DNA from: a virus
Reading direction: 5' to 3' (one strand)
Virus record (IMG/VR): IMGVR_UViG_3300017748_000205
Span: 1 to 20,133 of that record
DNA length: 20,133 nt
In this document: positions 1 to 17,010 of the stretch, one piece after another
Layout of the letters: each line of letters opens with the position of its first letter
Position numbering within the stretch: the first letter of the stretch is position 1
The notes under the pieces: generated by a model
Database searches by the model: none
The model's input: the letters and a program-made list of their open reading frames with translations, nothing else
Told to the model about the DNA's origin: nothing
Made by a program: the position numbers and the translations under genes

Positions 1-656
1 AGTTCTTCCATCGTAAGATTAAACTCTTCTTTAAGGTTCATGAACTTACGAACATCAGCAAAAAGTTTTTCACCATCTGTAAATCCTTTTGGAAGACCAG
101 ATTCAAAACCATATTCTGTTACTTTACCTCTTGCATCAACAACATTTTTATACTGATTTTTAACAGCAGCAGCTCGCATCTTTGATGCAGACATTCCCTC
201 TACACCGTCTGCGTCTGGGTCACGTTCTCCAGCAGATACTACCTTAATATCATCGAATCCGTAGAAACCGTGTCTACCTTCTTCACCATTATATTTGTTA
301 AGTAGGTTGTCAAATTCGTCCACTCTGTCAGAACCAACAACCATTACAATCGCCTTGTGACCTTTGTTATGAAGTTCAACTGCGATATCGAATACGTTTC
401 TTGCACGACTTACTTTGATGTTCTTCTTATACTTTGAGAACATCTTCTTCATGTATGCAACCTTCTTATTATGTGGAAGGGGGTCTTTCTTTGGGTTCTG
501 TGAATGTGATGGATACACATACATAGGAGCGCCAGGGTTCTTACCCTGCTCTCTTGCCAGTGCATCTATAAGTTTTTCGTGACCAGTTGTTGGTGGATTA
601 AATCTACCAAACGTAAATACTGCGGTGTCACCTCTTGCTTCTTTAAAAGTTTTCAT
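1..656 (-). CDS. Nucleotidylyltransferase of the NMNAT/cytidylyltransferase fold, 3' end cut off by window
   Basis: Reading back from ATG at 654-656 gives 218 residues with no stop before the window edge, so the C-terminus is missing. Residues 14-26 read FTFGRFNPPTTGH, the nucleotide-binding signature of the HxGH (here TTGH) nucleotidylyltransferase superfamily, which includes NadM/NadR, CoaD and glycerol-3-phosphate cytidylyltransferase. A second family hallmark, the S/T-rich motif before an Arg, appears as MSASKMR. VVGSDRV is the usual strand-4 segment. Such enzymes transfer AMP or CMP to a phosphorylated substrate. The substrate cannot be told here; an NAD+ role is possible but is inference. 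A Shine-Dalgarno GGGAG lies 6 bases upstream, inside the end of the preceding basic-protein gene, so the two are coupled. It is the last visible gene of the late-promoter cassette. The superfamily call is firm. Confidence 0.85.
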   Translation of the reverse strand, partial: MKTFKEARGDTAVFTFGRFNPPTTGHEKLIDALAREQGKNPGAPMYVYPSHSQNPKKDPLPHNKKVAYMKKMFSKYKKNIKVSRARNVFDIAVELHNKGHKAIVMVVGSDRVDEFDNLLNKYNGEEGRHGFYGFDDIKVVSAGERDPDADGVEGMSASKMRAAAVKNQYKNVVDARGKVTEYGFESGLPKGFTDGEKLFADVRKFMNLKEEFNLTMEE

Positions 657-657
657 T

Positions 658-1074
658 CTAATCTCCCACAGCATCTTGGCCTGCCATTGCGGCCTTGTTC
701 TGTTTAACTCTCTCGCCTTCACCAGCCTTCAGTTTCCTAAGAATCTTCTGTGAAATCTTATCAATCACTTTACGTTTCTTGGCCACAATCTTCTGGTCAA
801 TTTGAATTCGTTTTTGCATAGGGAGTTCTTTGTAGTTTACATCTGGGCCTAAACTACGTTTGATTACCATCTGTTTTGCTTGACGTTTTGCAATCGCCTG
901 TAACGCTTCTGGGTCACGGCGTCTTACTCTTGCTCTCTTCTTCTTCATCTTCACAGAAGATTTCCTTGCAAGAATTTTCATACGTCTACTCATCTTTCTG
1001 CGATTCTGCATAATTTGAGCAGGCGTTGCTTTCTCTTCGATTTCGTCTTCAAATAATTCTTTAAAAGTTATCAT
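658..1074 (-). CDS. Highly basic small phage protein, function unknown
   Basis: This gene encodes 138 aa. ATG at 1072-1074 overlaps the TGA of the upstream ligase-like gene as ATGA, which implies translational coupling. The first 15 residues are acidic (FKELFEDEIEE). Residues 25-55 are dominated by Lys and Arg (RRKMSRRMK, KMKKKRARVRRR), and a second basic helical stretch runs at about 95-120 (KKRKVIDKISQKILRKLK). There is no Cys, signal peptide or membrane segment. The composition suggests a nucleic-acid-binding or DNA-condensing protein. With a TATAAATA promoter heading the operon, it could be a late or packaged protein, but that is inference. The short N-terminal pattern, MxTFKE(A/L)x, resembles the start of the next gene (MKTFKEARG). 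I do not recognise a named family. Confidence 0.85.
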   Translation of the reverse strand: MITFKELFEDEIEEKATPAQIMQNRRKMSRRMKILARKSSVKMKKKRARVRRRDPEALQAIAKRQAKQMVIKRSLGPDVNYKELPMQKRIQIDQKIVAKKRKVIDKISQKILRKLKAGEGERVKQNKAAMAGQDAVGD

Positions 1075-2303
1075 TTATCCCATGCCTTTATTGCAGTAAA
1101 GTTATTGAAACTAAATTCCATTCTATCGACTAACTTCACAGCGTCACCAGATACCCTATCAATTGCAACATAGCCCTCTGGGTTAGTCACTTTAAATCCA
1201 TTACTAGTCTTGATAAAGGTATCAGTTAAACCCTTTACACTATTTAGTTTTTTCACAATCCCCATCTTGGCATTTACTAGATGTGATTGGAACGCAATAA
1301 CCGCCTCTAAATTTGTTAAATCTTTCTTAAATTCTCTTGCGTATTCTTTACCTTTTGTTCTCAGAACATCTTTACTCTTTTCGGTTTTTACTTTGTCAAC
1401 CTCTTTTGCAAAGTGATTTTCCACCCAAGTGATATATCCGGCTGCGTGTTGTTTTGGGTTCTTGATTGCTTCACCCTTACGAACCTTTGAGTTGTTGTAT
1501 GTCTTGAGTGATGCACCAACAAGTTTACCTGTCAGCGAGTTTTGCAATCTAAGGAACTTAGATAATTTTGCAGAGTTAATTTGGTGGAAGGACTTACCAG
1601 CGTTTGATAAGTGACCAGTTACAGTTGCGTTTTCAGCAGATGTAAATGTTGCAGTACCAGATGCATCCTTATATGTTGCATCATCCATCCATACAGATGA
1701 AGTCTTTGTTAGTTTACTAATGTTTGCACCGAATGATGCCTTCATATCTTGCAGTGCAGAACCAGTATATGTTGTATGCCATACGACACCAATCTTTGCA
1801 CTGTTAATTACTTTACCAAGGTCACTATCTGTCGGAACAGCATATACAATAGTATTAGGCTGAAAAGTATAATACTTTGTGCCGTCAATGGTTGTCTTTT
1901 CAACATCGTCTGTAAACATGAGGTCACCTTGCAGTACCCCTGTAATACCCAACTTAGAAAATTCTTTGAGTGCAATCTTAAATTTAGAATTAAGATTTCC
2001 AGATAAATCAGCATCAATCTCTTCCTCTGTCTTATAGAGTTTCGGTTCTACGTTGAATACCGATTTCTTTGCAACGAAAAACTTATTATCCTCTGGGTCA
2101 ATACCAGCGAATATCGCAGGCGCACCATCCCACTTCACAGTCATGTTAACTGAACTACGACTTGCACCAGAAAACATATCTCTCAGTGAACGCATGAAGT
2201 TGATTGCGGCCCTACCGCCGGGCACACCAAAGTTTAAGATTTCATCTTCAATGTGTTCTAAGTGCAGATTCTTTCCTGCTTTGTTTTCCATTAGCGACTG
2301 CAT
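1071..2303 (-). CDS. Ligase-like covalent nucleotidyltransferase candidate (KxDG protein)
   Basis: This gene encodes 410 aa. ATG at 2301-2303 shares one base with the upstream TAA (TAATG). A second ATG four codons in (Met5) is an alternative start. The visible motifs, in order, match the ATP-dependent DNA/RNA ligase and capping-enzyme superfamily. Motif I is KWDG at residues 57-60 (VKWDGAPAIF), with Lys57 the expected adenylated residue. A motif III-like segment is GVLQGDLMF at about 122-130, and a IIIa-like hydrophobic/aromatic stretch is at about 170-180. Motif IV is EGYVAID at 376-382 and motif V is AVKLVDR at 388-394. The interval between III and IV is long and carries a Lys-rich insert (about 270-350), unlike minimal ligases. 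An OB-fold is not obvious. Proteins of this type occur in marine T4-like phages as uncharacterised families. Existence of the gene is certain; ligase activity is a motif-based inference. Confidence 0.8.
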   Translation of the reverse strand: MQSLMENKAGKNLHLEHIEDEILNFGVPGGRAAINFMRSLRDMFSGASRSSVNMTVKWDGAPAIFAGIDPEDNKFFVAKKSVFNVEPKLYKTEEEIDADLSGNLNSKFKIALKEFSKLGITGVLQGDLMFTDDVEKTTIDGTKYYTFQPNTIVYAVPTDSDLGKVINSAKIGVVWHTTYTGSALQDMKASFGANISKLTKTSSVWMDDATYKDASGTATFTSAENATVTGHLSNAGKSFHQINSAKLSKFLRLQNSLTGKLVGASLKTYNNSKVRKGEAIKNPKQHAAGYITWVENHFAKEVDKVKTEKSKDVLRTKGKEYAREFKKDLTNLEAVIAFQSHLVNAKMGIVKKLNSVKGLTDTFIKTSNGFKVTNPEGYVAIDRVSGDAVKLVDRMEFSFNNFTAIKAWDK

Positions 2304-3439
2304 TAGAATCTCACTTTTGGATTACCATTGGATACATCAAGTTTAACACCCAAGATTTCTTGTACTTTGTCGATACCAGAAACAAGTAATGCCTTTACCT
2401 TATTCCAAATATAAGATAACATTTTCTTGAGAATATTTTTTAAGAATTGAACACCAGATTTTACACCAGATACAACCTTGTCAAATAAACCTTCATATAA
2501 TACTTCCTCTTGATATGCATGGTCAAATGCTTCTTTAAAAATACCTTTTGTCGCTGTCCAAGCACTTCCACCTGTACCAGATGTTTTAAACGAAATATTA
2601 AATGAGGTTTGTGATGCAACATAATCAACATACTTATCGTTAATTGCCACATAATCCGATTTACCGTTTTCATCAAACTTTAAAATGTGAGTTGCTTTTG
2701 GTAATGGGTCTTTAAACTTTTGATTGCCAGTCATTGCCTCACGGACGACCTCTTTATTAATCTCTGGTGTATTAAGAAGGTCTTTTAGTGCTTCAGTCAT
2801 TGCAGTCTGTTTCTGCAATCTTTCTTTTACCCAATTAGTCAAATCATCGTCAACACCGTCTTTGATAGCAGCCTTGAAATCATTAATCTGTCCACCAGCA
2901 GGCAACTTGAATGATGTGAATTCTTTTTCGATATCATCTGTCAATGAATTCCAAGACTCATTGAGTGCTTTACTTTTCACGCTGTCAGATAGATTGTCAT
3001 ATGCGGCGGCCAATGTTGCAAGTGTTTCTGCCTTACCACCAGACATAAGTTGAGAACCACCATATTTTTTTAGACTAATATGTTGTTTATTAATATACAT
3101 ATCAGTTTTAGGTGTTTTTGTAGAACCACCGGCAGGTTTACCTGTGGTTTGAATGAAGTAAGAATCCCATTTAGGATTAAGTGGTGCGTTACCAGAACCA
3201 AAGTGTTTCATAGTTCCACTTGGTCTACCAAATGCATTTTTTACAATCTTGTCACCAACTTCCATCCAATCATCATAAAGTGGTTTCCAATTGGTTTCTG
3301 CTGATTTGATTGCCGCTTTCTTGTCTTGACGCAAGGATTTCATATTGTAGGCTGCACAGATGATATTCTCAAACTCTGCACCCCTTGGTTTTTTACCCTT
3401 TGCCTCTACAAGTTCAATATGTTCCTTGAGAGTTAACAT
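2303..3439 (-). CDS. Putative PD-(D/E)XK-like nuclease, late gene
   Basis: From ATG at 3437-3439 the protein has 378 aa. An in-frame GTG three codons upstream is possible, but GGAG lies 8 bases before the ATG and fits it better. The N-terminus has G-A-E-F-E at about 20-24, as in the first helix of many PD-(D/E)XK enzymes. It is followed by TPKTDMYINKQHISLKKYG (about 109-127): an Asp at 113, a beta-hairpin, then S-L-K with Lys124. This looks like the D-x(n)-(E/S)xK core, with Ser in place of the usual Glu. A Gln (GGSQLMSGG) follows, as in restriction-type nucleases. The last ~65 residues form amphipathic, cationic helices (GLFDKVVSGVKSGVQFLKNILKKML) that could bind DNA or membrane. It is the first gene of the cassette behind the TATAAATA/sigma70 promoter. 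Nuclease function is inference; the gene is certain. Confidence 0.8.
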   Translation of the reverse strand: MLTLKEHIELVEAKGKKPRGAEFENIICAAYNMKSLRQDKKAAIKSAETNWKPLYDDWMEVGDKIVKNAFGRPSGTMKHFGSGNAPLNPKWDSYFIQTTGKPAGGSTKTPKTDMYINKQHISLKKYGGSQLMSGGKAETLATLAAAYDNLSDSVKSKALNESWNSLTDDIEKEFTSFKLPAGGQINDFKAAIKDGVDDDLTNWVKERLQKQTAMTEALKDLLNTPEINKEVVREAMTGNQKFKDPLPKATHILKFDENGKSDYVAINDKYVDYVASQTSFNISFKTSGTGGSAWTATKGIFKEAFDHAYQEEVLYEGLFDKVVSGVKSGVQFLKNILKKMLSYIWNKVKALLVSGIDKVQEILGVKLDVSNGNPKVRF

Positions 3440-3467
3440 TTCAATCACTCCATATAAATTACATACT

Positions 3468-3475
3468 TATTTATA
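3468..3475 (-). promoter_or_regulatory. T4-type late promoter TATAAATA
   Basis: An exact match to the T4 late promoter octamer lies on the minus strand, in the short non-coding gap before the nuclease-like gene. The expected start is about 6-7 bases downstream (near 3461), leaving a leader of roughly 20 bases before the ATG at 3439 with GGAG in it. It would be read by host core polymerase with a gp55-type late sigma and the gp33/gp45 coactivator system. gp45 is present in this window; gp33 and gp55 are not. It overlaps the -10 of a sigma70-like promoter. Confidence 0.75.
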
Positions 3476-3498
3476 TAACAAGTGATTTAGATTGTCAA
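3470..3498 (-). promoter_or_regulatory. Sigma70-like promoter overlapping the late promoter
   Basis: A perfect TTGACA occupies 3498-3493, followed by a 17-base spacer and TATAAA at 3475-3470. The -35 hexamer contains the TGA stop of the upstream 74-aa gene. The -10 hexamer is the first six bases of TATAAATA, so early and late recognition would share the same start region. Confidence 0.65.
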
Positions 3499-5685: not shown

Positions 5686-6252
5686 TTAAACATAATGAAG
5701 GTAACTTCCAATTATATATTTGGATTTGTCACCTGTTACTTTTCGGCCTGCGTGAAGATGTGTCCACATTGGTGGGAACATCAACATTCTACCTGCCTTC
5801 GGTGTTACAGAAATATCCCTCTGGGGGAAATCTGTTTCACCACCTTCTGGTTCATTGAGGTATAGAAAAAATACCAAGAACCGTCTTGCAGATGCATAGT
5901 TTCCTACATCTACATGGTCATGAAATTCATCAACACCATTTGGTTCGTATCGTTTCATGCGATACATTTCATAAGCATATTTTTCTGGGAACATCTTGTT
6001 AGTTACATCACAATCTTCCATGTATCTGTCGATACAACTATTGAAGGCGTACTGCAAGTTATCTTGATATGGTTTCCAGTTCTTATACTGTTGCAATGTA
6101 ATTTGAGTAAAAGAACGATGACCCTTTAGTGTTTGTTTATCAAACTGGTCTTCGTTCTTTTCAAACTCCTCAATCATGTGGTCACACATGAGTTGTGGAA
6201 TCACATCATCATAGACACGAATGTAGTTTTCATTCAGATTCTTGAACTGCAT
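5686..6252 (-). CDS. 2-oxoglutarate/Fe(II)-dependent oxygenase (prolyl-4-hydroxylase-like)
   Basis: The open frame begins at 6312, but I chose ATG at 6250-6252, where [18 protein letters not shown] starts a typical phage family N-terminus. This leaves 188 aa and a 23-base overlap with uvsX instead of 83. The Fe(II) facial triad is visible: EFHDHVD supplies HxD at about His113/Asp115, and [19 protein letters not shown] supplies the distal His (about 167). The Lys/Arg that binds 2-oxoglutarate follows in [22 protein letters not shown] and [11 protein letters not shown] are the standard jelly-roll segments of the P4H family. These enzymes hydroxylate protein or nucleic-acid substrates using O2 and 2-oxoglutarate. 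The substrate in marine T4-like phages, where the family is common, is unknown. Confidence 0.9.
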
Positions 6253-7285
6253 CTTCAACTTCCACTTCTTGATGATTACCGTACTTGAATTCTTTCTGTG
6301 CAAATTCGTCAAGTTGACGCATTACATCTTCAGTATAGAATTTTTCTGGGTCATTATTGATTGTCTTACCGAATGTCTTTGTGCCATCTGGTAGTTCAAT
6401 ACGAGTGGAAACTGATTTAAAGATACCTGCCTTGAGAGCAAGTTCAAGTAGACCATAGTACCTATCCAATCCACGTTCATACATCAGACGTACATCAACC
6501 ATCTTGTTTTCGATAGTCAAACGTGACTTCTGATTTTTACAGTGAATGATATTACCAACAACTTCAGTACCGTCTTTCTCTTTCTTCTTTGAAAGATACA
6601 CGATTGAAGATGCGGCATACTTCAGACCAGAACCACCACCCATTTCTTTTGTTGGGAACATAGAACCTACAACGTCATATGTATGGTTGGTAACAATCAT
6701 TGGTACTTTTGCCTTACCAAGTTTCAAGGTCAATACTCTAAATGCGGCCTTGAGAACTTGGGCCCGTGTCATATCTCTGGTTTCCTTACCTTCGGCAGTA
6801 TCATCAACCTCTTTTGTAGTTGACAACATACCAAGTGAATCAAGACATAACATAATTGGTTGTCTGTTTGCTTCATCTTGTCTTAGGTAATCATCCAGTA
6901 CACGAATTGCCTGTGTTCTAAACTCTTGTACAGTTGTTACTGGTAGAATGACCATACGTTCTGGGTCAATACCCCTATCAACAACCATTTGTTTAGTGAT
7001 TGCACTTTCTGATTCAAAGTACAAAACACCAGCGTTTGGATTTGCATCCAAGAACGACTTCACCATTCCCATCACGAAAAATGTTTTACCTGTTGCACTT
7101 TCACCAGCAACAGCAGTAATCTTGTTCGCAGGCAATCCACCATAGATTGACCCACTCAGTAACGCATTAAAGATATATGAACCAGTGTCAATAAAGTTAT
7201 CAACGTCACCAGCCTCTACACCCTCAGATACGAGTGCGGCGTATTCGTTGCCCGCCGTCTTAGCAATGTTTTTCAAAAATTCCAT
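6230..7285 (-). CDS. uvsX: UvsX, RecA-like strand-exchange recombinase
   Basis: This gene encodes 351 aa, close to the T4 UvsX length. Walker A is GESATGKT at 61-68, the catalytic Glu lies in YFESESA at 89-95, and Walker B is [12 protein letters not shown] at 143-154. An L1/L2-type DNA-binding region follows near [13 protein letters not shown]. The C-terminus ends in an acidic tail ([12 protein letters not shown]), a common feature of phage RecA proteins. Family knowledge: UvsX coats ssDNA with UvsY and gp32 and drives recombination-dependent replication and repair, using ends resected by gp46/gp47, which are also here. ATG at 7283-7285 is preceded by GGTGATATATAACT, an arrangement shared with gene 43. 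The end overlaps the oxygenase gene by 23 bases. Confidence 0.96.
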
Positions 7286-7287
7286 AG

Positions 7288-7689
7288 TTATATATCACCA
7301 TCCTTTCGATTTTCAGAGAGATACGCATCAAAACCGCCTGGGTATCTTGCCTCCAACTTTTCGATATTTGTTTCAATCACATCATCTATAGTAATATCTA
7401 GTGCGATACAAGCCTGGGCTATGTACCACATGATATCTCCTAATTCTCGTTTTGCATGGTATTGTGCATCTTCATCAAAGGGTTTACCTTGGAAGAAACA
7501 CTTCTTCACAATCTCTGCGAACTCACCACCTTCGGCCGTAATACCGATTGCGGCAGTCAGAATCCTTTCTGGTTGAACACCATGTTCTTCAACAATCTCA
7601 CAAGACTCAGTGAAGTACTCAGCATCTTTTGATGCTTGACTAGTCACCTCATCCACGAATTCTGCATACTTATTAAAATCAACAGTCAT
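7288..7689 (-). CDS. mazG: MazG-like nucleotide pyrophosphohydrolase
   Basis: This gene encodes 133 aa, a single all-alpha MazG-like domain. The metal-binding motif ExxE is [13 protein letters not shown] at 51-63 (Glu53, Glu56) and the second motif is [13 protein letters not shown] at 80-92 (Glu82, Asp85). The family tail [13 protein letters not shown] follows at 108-120. Members hydrolyse (d)NTPs to NMP and pyrophosphate. In marine phages MazG has been proposed to affect ppGpp or nucleotide pools, and biochemical work has favoured dGTP/dCTP-type substrates, so the role here is open. ATG at 7687-7689 has GAGG six bases upstream. Only two bases separate it from uvsX. The symbol is used for domain similarity, not for orthology with bacterial mazG. 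Confidence 0.9.
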
Positions 7690-7697
7690 AATTTACC

Positions 7698-8393
7698 TCA
7701 CTTTACTGCAATTGCACCCACGAACATATGGTTACGCCAAAACGGTTGAACGTCCTTGAACCCAGCATTATATATCATGTCTGTAAGTTCGTTCCATGTA
7801 TTTGGTTTCATCATATGTCTAAGAGTTCGTTCTTTGTTCATAATATCTTCAGTGTCAAATGACTTTCTTTTATAGTCATAATAATTGAATGTCAACATAT
7901 CTTGAAAAGTTGCATTCTCACAGATTGTTTTCTCAGAGAAGATAAACGCACCACCACAGTTCAAACCGTGATAGATATTTTTAATAACTTGTTTCCTATC
8001 TCTCTTGGGCATAAACTGTAAAGTAAAGATAGAAGTAACAAGAGATGCATTATGAATTTCTGTATCTCTAATATCTTCATGTTCAAAGTACACCCAAGCG
8101 TTTGGGTCAAACTTATAAATTACATCTTCACGTTTTACAAGGTCATCTTGAAACCCATCTGCAATCTCAATACCGTACCAACTTGCATCAGTACAATGGT
8201 CATAGTTGGCCTCGATTAGTCTTTGTGTCATCTTACCTGTAGAACAACCAAGGTCATACACGTTTGTATCGTTCTCTACAAAGTAACGAGATAGACTAAC
8301 AATGTCCTCTAGTAAATGTCCATAACCACGAATAGAGTTTTCGATATGTTCATCAAAACCCTCTTCACGATGTGCGAATGTAAAGTCAGCCAT
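7698..8393 (-). CDS. CmoA-like SAM-binding enzyme (carboxy-SAM synthase family)
   Basis: This gene encodes 231 aa; E. coli CmoA has 247. Extended similarity to CmoA can be seen by eye. VYDLGCSTG at 45-53 is the SAM-binding loop, EDIRDTEIHNASLV at 106-119 matches the CmoA segment after motif II, and FTLQFM, NIYHGLNCGGAFIFSEK (139-155) and YNAGF match closely. CmoA makes carboxy-S-adenosylmethionine from SAM and prephenate for CmoB, which modifies U34 of tRNAs. No CmoB lies in this window. At the position of E. coli Arg199, which binds the carboxylate, the ungapped alignment gives Glu188 followed by Arg189 (NKERTLR). The activity could therefore differ, for example ordinary methyl transfer. ATG at 8391-8393 has AGGAG nine bases upstream and overlaps the preceding gene by 8 bases. 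Confidence 0.85.
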   Translation of the reverse strand: MADFTFAHREEGFDEHIENSIRGYGHLLEDIVSLSRYFVENDTNVYDLGCSTGKMTQRLIEANYDHCTDASWYGIEIADGFQDDLVKREDVIYKFDPNAWVYFEHEDIRDTEIHNASLVTSIFTLQFMPKRDRKQVIKNIYHGLNCGGAFIFSEKTICENATFQDMLTFNYYDYKRKSFDTEDIMNKERTLRHMMKPNTWNELTDMIYNAGFKDVQPFWRNHMFVGAIAVK

Positions 8394-9534
8394 TGTTGTA
8401 TACTCCTATCACCTTTTCATAAACAGATGATGCAATCGCCTTTAACATCAAAGGTGGCACCATCCTACCAATTCTTTCTGCACGTTGATTCCACTTACCA
8501 GTAAGAACAAAGTCATCTGGAAGGGATTGAATTCTCATCAGTTCACCAATAGTTAGTTTTCTAGGTTCAGACCAGTGGAATGAACCAGCATTAGTAATAC
8601 CAGAACCCATTGCAGTAATTGTGGGGGCTGGTTGTTCTAATGAAACTCTCTTCAAATTGAAGTGACTGTTTCGTTCATTGAAGTCATCACCATTCAAAAC
8701 TCTCTCTGGGAAAGTTGGCATCTTTGCACCAGTGTCTTGCCAGTACTTTGTACCCAAGAATCTTTCAGTCAACATATCAACTTCTTCTTTGTCATACTCT
8801 AGACCATTGAGTGCATCCTTCAAAGGAACAACATAGTCAAAGTTCTCTGGGAACACACTACCAATGTTCATAAATGTCAAACCAACTTTAGTAGTTACAT
8901 CATTACGAACACCGATAAAGAACACTCTAGTTCTTGTCTGGGATACACCAAAGTAACGACTATCTAAAACCTTTGCACAAACATCATAACCAATCTGGTC
9001 AAATGTGTTCTGAATCTTGTTGAAGTATTGTTTTGCCTCACCAATAGTCAGGCCTGCAACATTCTCTGCAATAATTACTTTTGGTCTAATCTCATCTGCA
9101 ACTCGTAGAAACTCAAAGAACAAGTCTTCAATGTTCTCGACCATCTTACCATCAGAATACTTTTTAGTTTGACCCCAACCATCAGAGTGTTTACCACCAG
9201 TAGTATGACACATTTTACCAGCAACTGAAAATGCAGAACAAGGTGGTGAACCATCAAGAATATCAAGTTCTCCAACCTCAAGTCCAGCAACATCTAAAAA
9301 GTCTTTACCAGACAACTGTTTGATGTCGCCTGGCAAGATTGGTGTATCTGGGTAGTTTTCTCTATAAGTGTTCTGGGCCTCTTCTACAAATTCATTCATG
9401 CAAAGAATCTTACCGCCTGCAAGACGATATCCTGTAGAAGAACCACCCCCACCAGCAAAGGTAGAGATGACTTTAAATTTGTTTTGTGCAGATGCATCAC
9501 GCACATCTTGTATTGTGTATGGGTTATAACTCAT
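8386..9534 (-). CDS. DNA (cytosine-5) methyltransferase, Dcm family
   Basis: This gene encodes 382 aa. The ordered C5-MTase motifs are complete. Motif I is STFAGGGGSSTGY at about 24-36, with an unusually Gly-rich loop. Motif IV is GSPPCSAFS at 95-103, with nucleophile Cys99. Motif VI is ENVAG at 157-161, motif VIII is QTRTRVFFIG at 199-208, and motifs IX/X lie near RKLTIGELMRIQSLPDDF. The target-recognition region between VIII and IX is moderately short. It would methylate cytosine in phage or host DNA, either for protection from restriction or for regulation. No cognate restriction enzyme is adjacent. ATG at 9532-9534 overlaps the TGA of DNA polymerase (ATGA), so it is likely made together with gp43. 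Confidence 0.95.
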   Translation of the reverse strand: MSYNPYTIQDVRDASAQNKFKVISTFAGGGGSSTGYRLAGGKILCMNEFVEEAQNTYRENYPDTPILPGDIKQLSGKDFLDVAGLEVGELDILDGSPPCSAFSVAGKMCHTTGGKHSDGWGQTKKYSDGKMVENIEDLFFEFLRVADEIRPKVIIAENVAGLTIGEAKQYFNKIQNTFDQIGYDVCAKVLDSRYFGVSQTRTRVFFIGVRNDVTTKVGLTFMNIGSVFPENFDYVVPLKDALNGLEYDKEEVDMLTERFLGTKYWQDTGAKMPTFPERVLNGDDFNERNSHFNLKRVSLEQPAPTITAMGSGITNAGSFHWSEPRKLTIGELMRIQSLPDDFVLTGKWNQRAERIGRMVPPLMLKAIASSVYEKVIGVYNNG

Positions 9535-12008
9535 GCAAAGAAATCCTCCAAAGTTGTCTGCGTACCGTAGGAACGGTCAATGTTCCATCCGATATTGTCA
9601 GTGATGAAAGATAGTGGTTCAACAAATGCTTTTTCATATTGTGTATCATAGTCGATATACTTGTGAATGTCAAGTTCTTTTGGAACTTTTGTCATGAAAG
9701 ATATGACATTCGCACCCAATGGGTTGGGTTGTCGCAGTTGAATGAACTTAATCTTGTCACCCTCTTGAATATATGGATATTTAGCATTCAAGTTTTTCTC
9801 ACTTATCATATGATTGTAAATAAGTGAACCCTTGATATGCATGGGTGTTCCTTTGCGATAGATGGATGCACTGTCACGAAACTTCTTTAGTCCATTGACA
9901 GAACGAGGATATGCAATCTCCTCAACAGGTAAGTTGATAAACTCCTTACGAAAGTCTTGGATGAAAGTGTTGAGTTCTTTCTCATCACCAGACATGATAA
10001 TCTTCAGTGCCTCTTTAATCTTTGCACGACATGGTGCAGGCGTTGAAGACTTGACAGCCTCGATACCCATAATCTTTAGTTGAGGTTCTTTGAAACGTAC
10101 ACCTTCAACATCCCATGCGTTGAGAATGTACCTTTTCTTTGCAGTCCAGATTCCTTTGTCTGCAACCACCTCACGTTTCATCTGCATCTTCTGGTCATAC
10201 GCCTGAACATAATCTGCAAGTTCTTTGTAAGACTTGTCAATAAATGGTTCAATCTTTTCTTTCGCAATCGTATCAAGGAAGTCGATGGGATTGTTTGGTT
10301 TAACTGCATCAATGATAGCGTCAAATGTAACATAGATAGAATCTGTGTCAGATGCAATAACAAAGTCTTTACCTTCTGTATTGAGTATCTTGTTTAGATA
10401 CTGATTAATCTTTTTCTCAATCCAACGAATGGACAACTGACCGGCCTTGGTGATACCTTCTGCAATCGCAAGGTCATAGTAACGAAAGTATTGATTACCA
10501 ATTGCACCATAGGCAGAGTTCAGTGAAATCTTTCGAGCCATCTGGATGTTGTTGTAACGACTGATATACTTTTGATACTTGGGGTCTTTGGTATCTTCAA
10601 AGTCCTGTTTGGCCCGCAACATCTTTTTCTTGAAGATGGTACGGTCATCGTAAATCTCTTGCATCATCTCTGGAAGGAAACCCTTCTTGTCCTTACGATA
10701 CAACGCACCGTTAGGTGTAATAGTGCATTGGTCTGGAATATCAATTGGTGTTTCTTTCAACATCGTGTCAACGTCCAGTTTCATATAATCGCCAGTGACC
10801 AGTGTTTCTGGTGACATATTGTACTGCATGATAAGATGTGGATACAGTGAGTTCAAGTCAAATGACATAACCCACTTGTGTTGACCAACCTGTGGTTCTT
10901 TGACGTATGCACCCTCATACTTGTCAGACTTTGATGAATGCGACTTTTGAGGAATAACAATCTTTTTCTTCTTGAGATAATTGTGAATCAGAACATCCCA
11001 ATACTTCACCTGTCCGAATACATCTTCATAGTTGACCTTCGCCTCGTAGGCCATGGTGAACAACAACTCCAACAGTTTCATCCTGTCTTCCAGACGGTCA
11101 ACAAGTTCAACGTCAACGATGTTGTAGTCAATGAATGATTGATAGTCTTTGGTGTACCAATCTTTGAAAGTGTCGTATGGGTTTTCGTTCTTCTTCTCAC
11201 CCAACTCCACGAAAGCGATATGGTCAAGTCGATATGATTCTTGTCGAGTGTATGTGAACTTCTGATACAGTTGTAGATAGTCAAGGTTTGCAACACCTTG
11301 AATGTCATAGACCTGTTGTGGTCTACCGTGACTATACACAGAACGTGATGACACGTTGCCCCAAGGGGAAAACTCTTTCGCTCGGTCTTCACCAAGAACC
11401 TTGGTCACACGATTGACTAGGAAAGGAATATCAAAGAACTCCGTGTTCCAACCAGTGATTGCATCTGGATAGTGTTTGACCCAAAAGTTCATAAACGATG
11501 CAAGTAGTTCGTTCTCATTGGAACAGTTGATGTAAGTAATATCTTCTCTGTCGTTTTGATAGTCACCAATACCCCACACCACAATCTTCTTGGTGGTTTG
11601 GTTCTTGATGGTGATAGACAACATTTCTTCTTCGGCCTTCTCTGGGTCTGGAAAACCGTTCTCGCATTGTGTCTCAATATCAATTGTACACACAAGAATC
11701 TTGTCACTATCCCATTCCACACGGTCTGGATATGTGTCTGACAAATAAGTGTATGCAAACCTGTCTAGTCCATAGACCAGATGAGGTTGGTTCTGATATT
11801 GTTGTATGAATTCTTTTGCACCCTTGATAGTGTCATGTTTGTATGGCATGACATTCTTACCATCAAGAGTCTTCCATCCAGTTTCTTTCTGGACAGGAAC
11901 GTACAAAGTTGGTGAGTACTTAACCTTGTGATTAAGTCGCTCACCATTCTTGTATTCTCTTACGAGGATTTGATTACCCCATTGGGTAACATTGGTATAA
12001 AAACGCAT
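9531..12008 (-). CDS. 43: Family B DNA polymerase (T4 gp43-like)
   Basis: This gene encodes 825 aa, against 898 in T4. The 3'-5' exonuclease motifs are present: Exo I TIDIETQ (Asp110/Glu112), Exo II GWNTEFFDIPF (about 186-196) and Exo III YNIVD (295-299). The polymerase motifs are also present: A is SFDLNSLYP at 382-390, B is KISLNSAYGAIGN at 493-505 and C is ASDTDSIYV at 552-560. The extreme C-terminus QTTLEDFFA is the clamp-binding tail expected to dock on gp45. All catalytic residues look intact. Translation starts at ATG 12006-12008 with AAGGTGA about 12 bases upstream. A TTGACA-N17-TATAAC promoter overlaps that site. No autoregulatory hairpin like that of T4 gene 43 is obvious in the short leader. 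Confidence 0.98.
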   Translation of the reverse strand: MRFYTNVTQWGNQILVREYKNGERLNHKVKYSPTLYVPVQKETGWKTLDGKNVMPYKHDTIKGAKEFIQQYQNQPHLVYGLDRFAYTYLSDTYPDRVEWDSDKILVCTIDIETQCENGFPDPEKAEEEMLSITIKNQTTKKIVVWGIGDYQNDREDITYINCSNENELLASFMNFWVKHYPDAITGWNTEFFDIPFLVNRVTKVLGEDRAKEFSPWGNVSSRSVYSHGRPQQVYDIQGVANLDYLQLYQKFTYTRQESYRLDHIAFVELGEKKNENPYDTFKDWYTKDYQSFIDYNIVDVELVDRLEDRMKLLELLFTMAYEAKVNYEDVFGQVKYWDVLIHNYLKKKKIVIPQKSHSSKSDKYEGAYVKEPQVGQHKWVMSFDLNSLYPHLIMQYNMSPETLVTGDYMKLDVDTMLKETPIDIPDQCTITPNGALYRKDKKGFLPEMMQEIYDDRTIFKKKMLRAKQDFEDTKDPKYQKYISRYNNIQMARKISLNSAYGAIGNQYFRYYDLAIAEGITKAGQLSIRWIEKKINQYLNKILNTEGKDFVIASDTDSIYVTFDAIIDAVKPNNPIDFLDTIAKEKIEPFIDKSYKELADYVQAYDQKMQMKREVVADKGIWTAKKRYILNAWDVEGVRFKEPQLKIMGIEAVKSSTPAPCRAKIKEALKIIMSGDEKELNTFIQDFRKEFINLPVEEIAYPRSVNGLKKFRDSASIYRKGTPMHIKGSLIYNHMISEKNLNAKYPYIQEGDKIKFIQLRQPNPLGANVISFMTKVPKELDIHKYIDYDTQYEKAFVEPLSFITDNIGWNIDRSYGTQTTLEDFFA

Positions 12009-13072: not shown

Positions 13073-14004
13073 CTGAACTGCACCGATGTCATCATCTCAG
13101 TGAGACAAGCCAAGAGATTAATTTCTTGGTCAGCGACAAAGGCAGACTTATAAGAATAATCCCCAAGTATGAGAACACAGTGAGGAACAGCGCTATCTGG
13201 TACATTACCAGATAAACTATCATAAATCCTACGATAAACCCTATGAGGGTCATTGTCCAGATTATGAACAACCCACTCTCTACAACCCTTGAAGTCTTTA
13301 TCCTTAATAAATGACACGAGCTCTTTGATAGAAGCGTCTGATAGATTGACGAGGATTCCAGCATCAATAGAACCTGTCGCAGAGTATCGTTGTAGTTCGT
13401 TGAGACATCTTCTCCAATCTGGAAAAAACTTGTTGATAAGGTCTGCCACAACTTTTTCATTTGAGTTAACATTCTCAGTCTCCAAAATGTGTTGTACACG
13501 TTTCATAAAACCCATTGCAAGTTTTGGTTTCTCTTCGTTTGGAATACGAAACTCTATCGTAGAACAACGACTATGCAAAGGTTCAATGATACGATTTCTG
13601 AAATTACAAGTCAGAATGAAACCACAGTTTCTACTAAACTCCTCAATAAACCCACGCAACGCTGGTTGTGTGGATTGTGGGTTTAGATAATCTGCCTCAT
13701 CCAGAATAACGTACTTGCGTTTACCATCCATAGAGACAGTACTCGCAAAGTTTTTAATTTTAGTTCGTAGTGTGTCGATACCAGATTCTTCAGAACCGTT
13801 TATCATCATGTAGGTACAACCAATCTGTTCCAGCATTGCTTTTGCAATTGTAGTCTTACCAACACCGGCCGTACCAGTGAGTAGTAGATTTGGAATCTCT
13901 TCGTTGTCTACGAACTGTTGAAAAGTCTGCTTTAGTTCACTTGGAAGTATGCAGTCCTCAATTGTTTGAGGACGGTACTTCTCTACCCATAATATATCAT
14001 TCAT
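13069..14004 (-). CDS. 44: Clamp loader ATPase large subunit (T4 gp44-like)
   Basis: This gene encodes 311 aa (T4: 319), an AAA+ protein of the RFC/DnaX clan. The N-terminus ILWVEKYRPQTIEDCILP is the conserved RFC box. Walker A is GTAGVGKTT at 44-52, Walker B is YVILDEADYL at 98-107, sensor 1 is FILTCNF at about 129-135, and the SRC motif is HSRCST at 144-149, whose Arg acts across the subunit interface. The collar domain follows from about residue 230. With gp62 it hydrolyses ATP to load gp45. ATG at 14002-14004 lies one base after the gp45 stop. A clear strong ribosome-binding site is missing; GAGA is about 12 bases upstream, which may allow repression by RegA as in T4. Confidence 0.97.
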   Translation of the reverse strand: MNDILWVEKYRPQTIEDCILPSELKQTFQQFVDNEEIPNLLLTGTAGVGKTTIAKAMLEQIGCTYMMINGSEESGIDTLRTKIKNFASTVSMDGKRKYVILDEADYLNPQSTQPALRGFIEEFSRNCGFILTCNFRNRIIEPLHSRCSTIEFRIPNEEKPKLAMGFMKRVQHILETENVNSNEKVVADLINKFFPDWRRCLNELQRYSATGSIDAGILVNLSDASIKELVSFIKDKDFKGCREWVVHNLDNDPHRVYRRIYDSLSGNVPDSAVPHCVLILGDYSYKSAFVADQEINLLACLTEMMTSVQFR

Positions 14005-15493: not shown

Positions 15494-15937
15494 TTATTTG
15501 ACGGCAATCAACTGAGGTTTTTTCTCCTCTGGTACGATTCTTTCTAGTTCGATAGTCAACATACCATTGTCGAGTTTTGCACCCCCTACAACAATATCAT
15601 CGGCCAGAGTGAACTTTCTAGTGAAGTTTCTCTGTGAGATACCTTTATAAAGAGTTTCCTTTTCCTCTTTCTCTTTTACTGATTTTACAGTGAGAAGACC
15701 CTCTGCGAATTCAATTTCGATATCCTTCTTACCGAATCCAGCGAGTGCCATTTCAATTGTGTAATTGTACTCATCTGTCTTTTCAATATTGTAAGGTGGA
15801 TACCCTGTTGATTCTGCCTGATGAGTTACATAATCGAACAGTCTGTCGAATGTTCTATCGAAGCCCACGGCATAGGGTGTCATGTGATTTACGTCAAATG
15901 CCTGAAGGGCATTTCTGAATGTGCTTAAGTTAGTCAT
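15494..15937 (-). CDS. hsp20: Small heat shock protein (Hsp20/IbpA-like)
   Basis: This 147-aa protein closely matches bacterial IbpA in layout. The N-terminal arm contains GFDRTFDRLFDYV (24-36), followed by GYPPYNIEKTDEYNYTIEMALAGFGKKDIEI (starting about residue 45). The alpha-crystallin core includes LYKGISQRNFTRKFTLADDI and the conserved GMLTIEL, and an [I/L]-x-[I/V]-type tail PQLIAVK closes the protein. Such proteins form oligomers that hold unfolding proteins. In T4-like phages of marine bacteria hsp20 is nearly universal and is thought to help scaffold or capsid assembly, though this is not proven. ATG at 15935-15937 has AAGGAG 7 bases upstream. The gene has a TATAAATA promoter and a leader able to hide its ribosome-binding site. 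Confidence 0.95.
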   Translation of the reverse strand: MTNLSTFRNALQAFDVNHMTPYAVGFDRTFDRLFDYVTHQAESTGYPPYNIEKTDEYNYTIEMALAGFGKKDIEIEFAEGLLTVKSVKEKEEKETLYKGISQRNFTRKFTLADDIVVGGAKLDNGMLTIELERIVPEEKKPQLIAVK

Positions 15938-16000: not shown

Positions 16001-16008
16001 TATTTATA
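16001..16008 (-). promoter_or_regulatory. T4-type late promoter TATAAATA before hsp20
   Basis: An exact TATAAATA octamer lies on the minus strand, inside the inverted repeat CCATAT-AA-ATATGG. The predicted start is near 15995, giving a leader of about 58 bases to the hsp20 ATG. This places hsp20 with late (virion assembly) expression. Confidence 0.75.
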
Positions 16009-16050: not shown

Positions 16051-17010
16051 TTAGGCGGCTTCGGCGTATTCCAAAGCCTTGTCAAGTGCGTTCAACTTGA
16101 CCTTACGGTTACGTCCGTACCAAGATGAAACCAAACGTCCATCATTTGAACGACCTTGCAAGTGGTCTGTCATGTTAGTGACAGAGTTGAAGGCAGTCCA
16201 CCAAGTACCTTGGGCAAAGTTAGCGCCAGGTTGGACATCAAGGTTTTCGTAGGCGAGTTTCGCATTACGAGTTGTAAATGGAAGTTCACCATCTACTTTC
16301 TCTTTGGCAGGAGCGCCGAATACTTCATTGAAGTACTGGATGACATTATCACCAGTTGCCTTCTTTGAACCAAGGAACGCAGCCATTGATTTGTACTCTT
16401 GCATTTTCTCATTTGCAATATTCATGTGTGCCTTCACCTCAGCAGGGTCAAAGGCCTTACGGTGGTTTACCGTTACCATCTTATCTGCATTCTGTGAAAG
16501 AGAAAGTGTAAGAGTGTTGTTACAAACCACACGAATTGGTGTCATACGAATGTTAATCGCCTTACCAAACTGGTGTGGGTTTGAGAACAAGAAGTAGTTC
16601 TCTGTAACGTCACCGTTAAACAATTCAAATGATTCTTTACACTTTGCAAGTGCCCAAACCATTTGTCCATCTTTCAGTGAACCAGCAGTGTGCATTTCCA
16701 TGTCACCTGCCATCACATACTCGTGGAAGAATTCAAATGCCTCTGAGTTCTGTACAGGATTCCAACCTGTACCAACAACATCAAGAATAGAGTTGTCAGA
16801 GGTTCTTACAAGTGCTTCCTTGTTTGGAACTTTAACACCGTTTGGTGTCATCAGTGGTTGTTTCTCCACTTCCCAATCAAGTCCAGCGACTTTTTGGAAT
16901 TGGTCTGGTGTGAGGTCTGCCTCAACCTTTGTACCAAGTCCATGCCATGGAAGGTCACCAACGTATGCCATTTGTGCCTGTCCGTTTACAATTTCAAGTT
17001 CGTGTGCCAT
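16051..17010 (-). CDS. DUF932 (phage/plasmid-related, TIGR03299-like) protein
   Basis: This gene encodes 319 aa, the usual length of the family. The start MAHELEIVNGQAQMAYVGDLPWHGLGTKV, with its PWHGLGTKV motif, is diagnostic. Later family segments are AGLDWEVEKQPL, VVGTGWNPVQN, MVWALAKCKE, NPHQFGKAINIRMTPIRVVCNNTL and QGTWWTAFNSVTNMTDH near the end. The family is common in phages and plasmids. Its molecular function is unsettled, and I do not assign one. The gene has one of the strongest expression contexts in the window: a TTGACA-N17-TATTAT promoter and AAAGGAGAT eight bases before ATG at 17008-17010. It is followed by a stem-loop, so it seems to be a single-gene transcription unit placed between genes 46 and 45. 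Confidence 0.9.
   Translation of the reverse strand: MAHELEIVNGQAQMAYVGDLPWHGLGTKVEADLTPDQFQKVAGLDWEVEKQPLMTPNGVKVPNKEALVRTSDNSILDVVGTGWNPVQNSEAFEFFHEYVMAGDMEMHTAGSLKDGQMVWALAKCKESFELFNGDVTENYFLFSNPHQFGKAINIRMTPIRVVCNNTLTLSLSQNADKMVTVNHRKAFDPAEVKAHMNIANEKMQEYKSMAAFLGSKKATGDNVIQYFNEVFGAPAKEKVDGELPFTTRNAKLAYENLDVQPGANFAQGTWWTAFNSVTNMTDHLQGRSNDGRLVSSWYGRNRKVKLNALDKALEYAEAA

Follow-up and report, generated by a model that had tools for sequence, protein, structure and literature searches.

A late operon of a marine T4-like phage with a nuclease-like protein, DUF6267 and a nucleotidylyltransferase as candidate head-packaged cargo

What do four tightly packed genes do when they lie beside the replication genes of a T4-like phage and carry a T4-type late promoter? 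The operon in question, genes A to D, stands at the left end of IMG/VR record IMGVR_UViG_3300017748_000205, a 20,133-base virus fragment that was analyzed over its whole length and is called the window below; it comes from a T4-like (Kyanoviridae) phage close to Methylophilales phage Melnitz-1 (hereafter Melnitz). We favor, with moderate confidence, the explanation that A–D are a nucleic-acid-processing set that is made late, packaged in the phage head and ejected at infection. The main new point is that, judging from their predicted N-termini, A–D of the window's clade appear to start with a T4-like capsid-targeting peptide with an [LI]xE processing site.

A packed operon and its late promoter

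A sequence-only reading of this DNA had described four tightly packed genes behind a late octamer, and this observation is confirmed: all four open reading frames (ORFs), which are on the minus strand, and their junctions were recovered as claimed, as were the motifs KWDG and EGYV in B, TTGH in D and D...SLK in A and the basic 138-amino-acid (aa) protein C. The elements of the operon are as follows.

3493 to 3498, minus strand: TTGACA, a sigma-70-like -35 box, with a 17-base spacer to the octamer
3468 to 3475, minus strand: late octamer TATAAATA, T4-type, 28 bases before the ATG of A
2303-3439, minus strand: gene A, nuclease-like, 378 aa from ATG, or 381 aa if translation starts upstream, at the GTG at 3448
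1071-2303, minus strand: gene B, DUF6267, 410 aa
658-1074, minus strand: gene C, very basic, 138 aa, pI 10.9, 29% K+R
3-656, minus strand: gene D, cytidylyltransferase-like, 218 codons, cut by the window's left end

A and B join at TAATG, B and C at ATGA, and C and D are separated by a 1-base gap. The order helicase, A, B, (C), D is common to the window, Melnitz and Pelagibacter phage HTVC008M (both phages are Kyanoviridae; B is 73% identical to the Melnitz homologue and 44% to that of HTVC008M), and several cyanophages have the order helicase, slot A, B, D, where slot A denotes the position held by A. In the relatives examined, the operon lies directly 3′ of the polymerase, UvsX and helicase genes, within the replication cluster.

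Do the four genes travel together? Among loci fetched with queries from three lineages, which are not a sample of all phages, D lies within 4 kb of B in 193 of the 195 viral-contig loci in which at least 1.5 kb follows B, and a slot-A ORF is present in 207 of 218. B and D are tightly linked, but not all loci have the full set of four, since slot A is held by dissimilar proteins and C was seen solely in the window's clade. In some cyanophages, a short DUF6267 gene lies far from D.

Within the window alone, which is AT-rich, TATAAATA is not significant (2 seen, 1.06 expected), and its standing as a late promoter comes from comparison with relatives and with Melnitz. Of the 56 distinct regions that precede A in window-like relatives, 39 have it no farther than 120 bases away. 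In the 141 kb of Melnitz it occurs 25 times and precedes 20 annotated genes by no more than 120 bases; these are mostly structural (scaffold, major capsid, sheath, baseplate); the one octamer in the Melnitz replication cluster precedes gene A, at -47, and the phage encodes a late sigma factor. These comparisons bear out the late promoter that had been read upstream of A, and we consider it well supported at the level of sequence that the octamer is a real late promoter and that the operon is expressed late. Separately, the window has a second TATAAATA at 16001-16008 (minus strand), upstream of a small heat-shock-like gene at 15494-15937, and the Hsp20 gene of Melnitz is likewise preceded by the octamer.

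T4-like N-termini and the phage head

Packaging of the T4 internal protein IPIII requires only its first ten residues, of which positions 4 and 7 serve targeting and positions 8 and 10 serve processing at [LI]xE (PMC9026906). A tag pattern that we built on these four positions finds T4 IPII and IPIII as strict matches, not IPI, with one weaker false match among 29 T4 genes tested. Among the 218 proteins of Melnitz, strict matches are confined to A and B (0.15 expected), which start MQGFKTFLSEA and, read from TTG, MINFSKYITED, respectively; matches to variant forms include D (MKKFSEIIEARG) and a kinase-like protein that starts MKTFAELQEG. Tag-like N-termini are also present in A (MLTLKEHIELVEA) and C (MITFKELFEDEIEE) of the window. 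Across the window-like clade, the tag rates are 31% for A, 65% for B, 65% for C and 58% for D, versus 8% of other genes. Cyanophages have the tag on D alone (59% versus 7% of other genes), with 0% for A and B.

The Melnitz genes for an S77 prohead protease, scaffold and capsid were recognized; the protease gene is not within the 20-kb window. Near its expected cleavage site the Melnitz major capsid protein reads FLSE-AAP, and Melnitz A starts MQGFKTFLSE-A.

Are the products found in virions? Others have detected homologues of D in virions of S-SM1 (PMC3037559), S-SZBM1 (PMC9146016), S-SCSM1 (PMC9602691) and S-CREM2 (PMC10665884). In the S-SCSM1 record, ORF89-93 are marked as virion proteins, including slot-A ORF90 and D, which is ORF91. 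Virions of S-SZBM1 yielded D (140) but neither DUF6267 (141) nor the slot-A protein (142), which agrees with a tag on D alone in cyanophages. The earlier idea of virion carriage is thus borne out by others' work for D homologues and by the S-SCSM1 record for a slot-A gene; for A–C of the window's clade, we infer packaging from their tag-like N-termini. That the operon would be an undescribed system holds in part, but D was already known from virions.

Because late synthesis, the tag, the protease site and the published presence of D in virions point the same way, we consider it fairly probable that A–D are late head-packaged cargo, ejected with the DNA. In outline, the operon would be transcribed late, its products would enter the head through their T4-type capsid-targeting N-termini and be trimmed at [LI]xE by gp21, the phage-encoded prohead protease (peptidase family S77), and they would leave the head with the DNA at the next infection.

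Several observations weigh against this reading. UvsX (MDFLKDIVKE) fits the pattern as well, as do some further genes, which makes any single match weak. In the window itself, only shortened forms of the tag are present on B (MQSLMENKAG) and D (MKTFKEARG; T4 IPI starts MKTFKEF); in the HTVC008M lineage A alone is enriched, with no match in B and D; and no clear tag is visible on S-SZBM1_139 or S-SCSM1_90, which are virion proteins by detection or annotation. For the window's clade we found no proteomics, and CsCl-purified virions can carry abundant contaminants, according to the authors of the S-SCSM1 (PMC9602691) and S-CREM2 (PMC10665884) studies. Since a TTGACA-N15-19-TATAAA arrangement, at sigma-70 spacing, is present upstream of A in 16 of the 56 relatives, an additional early promoter is possible, and the operon may be transcribed early as well as late.

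Alternatively, A–D could be ordinary intracellular enzymes that belong to the replication cluster and are produced late, or all through infection, to serve replication and repair; B would be the phage's missing ligase beside the polymerase, UvsX and the gp41-type helicase, and the N-termini would resemble internal proteins only incidentally. The TTGACA box 17 bases from the octamer would permit early transcription. The position of the operon directly 3′ of those genes fits this alternative, as do our finding of B as the sole ligase-like gene and the cyanophage B, untagged and undetected in S-SZBM1 virions. However, it must contend with the octamer upstream of A in most relatives, with tag rates for A–D in the window's clade that greatly exceed background, with a D-type protein in several virion proteomes and with the OB domain that replication ligases usually have and for which B has no room. 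We judge it unlikely and continue with head-packaged cargo as the favored reading.

A nuclease slot, a ligase-like partner and their neighbors

If A–D are head cargo, what would they do? The AlphaFold model of A (pLDDT 82) matches the restriction endonuclease HinP1I (2fkc) at Z 9.7, with 186 residues aligned at an rmsd of 3.8; the next row is at Z 4.0, and influenza PA endonuclease rows are at Z 2.6-3.0. A contains TPKTD at 109-113 and SLKK at 122, and its invariant residues include E24, D113, S122, Q130 and E138. In its putative catalytic site, S122-x-K replaces (D/E)xK between the invariant D113 and E138; the PD-(D/E)XK motif varies among type II enzymes, and residues may be recruited from elsewhere (PMC4081073). 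A Foldseek search of the PDB with A gave no match at E<=0.001, and profiles A1 and A3 drew only chance matches from the PDB sequences. The nuclease fold proposed for A is upheld by the model: A is predicted to be a PD-(D/E)XK-type nuclease with a HinP1I fold, with the fold well supported, and nuclease activity would be expected from it.

Slot A is occupied by at least 12 protein groups without BLAST links between them. D...SxK is found in 86 of 153 slot-A proteins versus 14 of 545 other ORFs of at least 220 aa, counts in which the sequences are not independent. The generalization that all slot-A proteins have D...SxK was rejected, as whole clusters, such as one of 455 aa, are without the motif, and the slot appears from these sequences to be mostly, not always, of this type. 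By fold, the model of A also matches uncharacterized 276-aa cyanophage proteins at just 16-18% identity; in S-IOM18, one of the two phages with this match, slot A itself holds a 276-aa gene, which may encode the matching protein. We propose that slot A is a site where nuclease-like proteins are exchanged and that A is its present occupant.

The hypervariable slot and the HinP1I fold could also indicate that A is a sequence-specific endonuclease directed against host or rival DNA, at sites that the phage avoids or methylates, in a virion-borne reversal of restriction-modification. The window encodes a candidate methyltransferase:

8386-9534, minus strand: C5 cytosine DNA methyltransferase (PF00145), following the gene for DNA polymerase; top PDB match 8yf3 (E 8e-143)

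and GATC is depleted in both the window (0 versus ~85 expected) and Melnitz (23 versus ~499 expected). However, we know of no link between the methyltransferase and A, and GATC depletion spans many A types, is partial within several and does not track A. We consider this alternative improbable, and self-avoidance was rejected as a clue to the target of A, since GATC depletion varies among relatives independently of slot-A type. CGCG and CCGG are likewise depleted in Melnitz. HTVC008M has a DruA-like protein (PF14236) where the window has the methyltransferase, and the window's replication cluster also encodes a DUF932 protein (16051-17010, minus strand).

B belongs to DUF6267 (PF19782, E 3.5e-105), a family named in no paper of the literature searched and without a match in plasmids. 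All nine complete Kyanoviridae relatives have B, and none of the nine matches PF09414, PF01068, PF09511 or PF01653; the PF09511 search did recover T4, its positive control. B carries the motifs KWDG (57), QGDL (125), EGYV (376) and KLVDR (390), and K57, D59, G60, D127, E376, G377 and K390 are invariant in 12 divergent forms of B, down to 25% identity. The order and chemistry of these residues fit ligase motifs I, III, IV and V, to which they presumably correspond. In the model of B, residues 53-211 align with RNA ligases at Z 5.2-6.5, middling values amid helical matches: Trypanosoma brucei REL1 (6.5) and T4 Rnl2 (6.2), these two over ~100-118 residues, tRNA ligase (5.8) and Naegleria RNA ligase (5.2), with DNA ligases at 4.7. 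A helical part at about residues 220-345, an inserted domain of ~130 residues, is largely missing from short cyanophage forms, and only 20 residues of B follow the motif V lysine, which leaves no room for a C-terminal OB domain.

Against a ligase, the model of B is of moderate quality (pTM 0.58) and has low confidence at motifs I, IV and V; a Foldseek search of the PDB with B gave no match at E<=0.001, and HHalign of DUF6267 against T4 Rnl2 and 30 relatives was negative (probability 0.2%). The earlier label of B as ligase-like thus survives in the order and invariance of its motifs and in the partial structural match to RNA ligases, but Foldseek and HHalign gave nothing for it. We consider a nucleotidyltransferase fold likely and the chances for and against ligase function about even; B would then be a divergent covalent nucleotidyltransferase of RNA-ligase type without the C-terminal OB domain.

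Two candidates concerning B were discarded. S-SCSM1_90 is not a DUF6267 protein, since a profile search shows it to be a slot-A protein of phrog_1462; the DUF6267 gene of S-SCSM1 is at 221 kb and is without virion annotation. A fusion of DUF6267 to D, hinted at by phrog_455, was not borne out, as none is fused in S-H9-2, ACG-2014f, S-N03 or two jumbo phages.

In 43 HTVC008M-like loci, a zeta/polynucleotide-kinase-like P-loop kinase lies between B and D; it is absent from the part of the cassette that is visible in the window. A gene of this kind lies at 9718-10380 of one locus analyzed, and Melnitz has one as well:

Melnitz 64603-65271: zeta/polynucleotide-kinase-like kinase with the tag-like N-terminus MKTFAELQEG

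A kinase at this position favors nucleic-acid end processing, possibly of RNA. Could the operon be an RNA-repair kit, in which the kinase and B heal tRNA cut by host anticodon nucleases, as T4 Pnk and Rnl1 do, and are delivered in the head for immediate repair? The top ligase matches of B are to RNA ligases, above DNA ligases, and the kinase is inside the HTVC008M-like cassettes, with its tag-like start in Melnitz. However, the Z-values of B are middling and stand among helical matches, the kinase may just as well be of zeta type and is not in the visible part of the window's cassette, and A and D have no role in the known RNA-repair pathway. We regard this more specialized role as doubtful and retain a broader nucleic-acid-processing cargo.

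C has no significant Pfam or PHROG match and would be a basic partner that probably binds nucleic acid. D matches CTP_transf_like (PF01467) at 25 bits against a cut-off of 21, weakly matches phrog_3462 (E 2e-4) and has TTGH at 23 and SASKMR at 156; its full-length relative in Melnitz has a long tail with DUF5824. The nucleotidylyltransferase signature claimed for D is intact, and we take D from its sequence to be a putative adenylyl- or cytidylyltransferase, nicotinamide mononucleotide adenylyltransferase (NMNAT)-like, for which the NMNAT substrate is a published guess. In two relatives' loci, genes 3′ of D (6062-7624; 13219-13974) share a segment like DxDNDGD..DSDKYL..RRK, and S-SCSM1 ORF92, which also has such a segment, is annotated as a virion protein. 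Genes of this kind are probably further head cargo or core proteins.

The very basic C, the annotation of the downstream neighbors as virion proteins in S-SCSM1 and the tolerance of slot A for unrelated replacements are what might be expected if A–D were structural or DNA-condensing components of the head core, with enzyme folds that are relics. This is very improbable: divergent relatives of A and B retain the catalytic-type residues without exception, and the motifs of D are intact. Enzymes carried as cargo are the reading with which we proceed.

A proposed role and its relation to known systems

If A–D are ejected with the DNA, the set would most likely work during the opening minutes of infection, ahead of phage gene expression, and its substrate would be nucleic acid of the host or nucleic acid that is entering the cell. 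A would cut, B would seal breaks on the phage side or repair cleaved RNA, and D would restore NAD+ or a similar cofactor. That the proteins jointly cut and seal is a tentative proposal. Similarly speculative, and unlikely to hold in full, is the wider claim that marine T4-like heads carry a complete, exchangeable, injected set that is active before the first phage transcript and consists of a swappable nuclease, an RNA-ligase-type DUF6267 protein, a polynucleotide-kinase-like enzyme in some lineages and a nucleotidylyltransferase.

If true, the favored reading would assign a function and a delivery route to DUF6267, which each of the nine complete kyanovirus genomes checked encodes. It would also carry the T4 internal-protein principle of conserved tag and variable cargo over to abundant ocean phages and explain the recurrent NMNAT-like enzyme in cyanophage virions. 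The tag would also offer a simple sequence rule to predict injected cargo in marine phages.

How do A–D compare with systems already described? A shares with HinP1I, a type II restriction endonuclease of the PD-(D/E)XK class, its overall fold over 186 residues, but is 13% identical, has S where D/E normally precedes the catalytic K, carries a long extra C-terminal helix and has no linked known cognate methyltransferase. B resembles the T4 RNA ligase 2/REL1 family in the order of its motif I, III, IV and V residues and in the partial structural alignment of residues 53-211; in contrast to that family, it has an inserted helical domain of ~130 residues and little sequence past motif V, and profile similarity to the family was not detectable. 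T4 polynucleotide kinase and zeta-type kinases have a counterpart in the P-loop kinase inside the cassette of HTVC008M-like phages, although the part of the cassette seen in the window is without it. D is a homologue of the cyanophage virion cytidylyltransferase/NMNAT-like protein (T4-GC190), which the papers cited here treat as a lone metabolic or regulatory enzyme; we did not find in them a link to DUF6267, the nuclease slot or a capsid tag.

The comparison that bears most directly on delivery is with T4 IPI, IPII, IPIII and Alt, which are packaged in the head and ejected. The shared features are an MK-x-[FY]...[LI]xE tag (PMC9026906, PMC3012670), a late promoter, an S77 prohead protease and highly variable cargo behind a conserved tag. 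T4 internal proteins are diverse defence proteins behind such a tag (PMC3012670), and an exchanged nuclease slot beside a constant ligase-like partner recalls, by analogy, their variability. Unlike in T4, the cargo here would be a nuclease fold, a ligase-like protein and a nucleotidylyltransferase encoded in one operon within the replication cluster, with the packaging of A–C predicted from their sequences.

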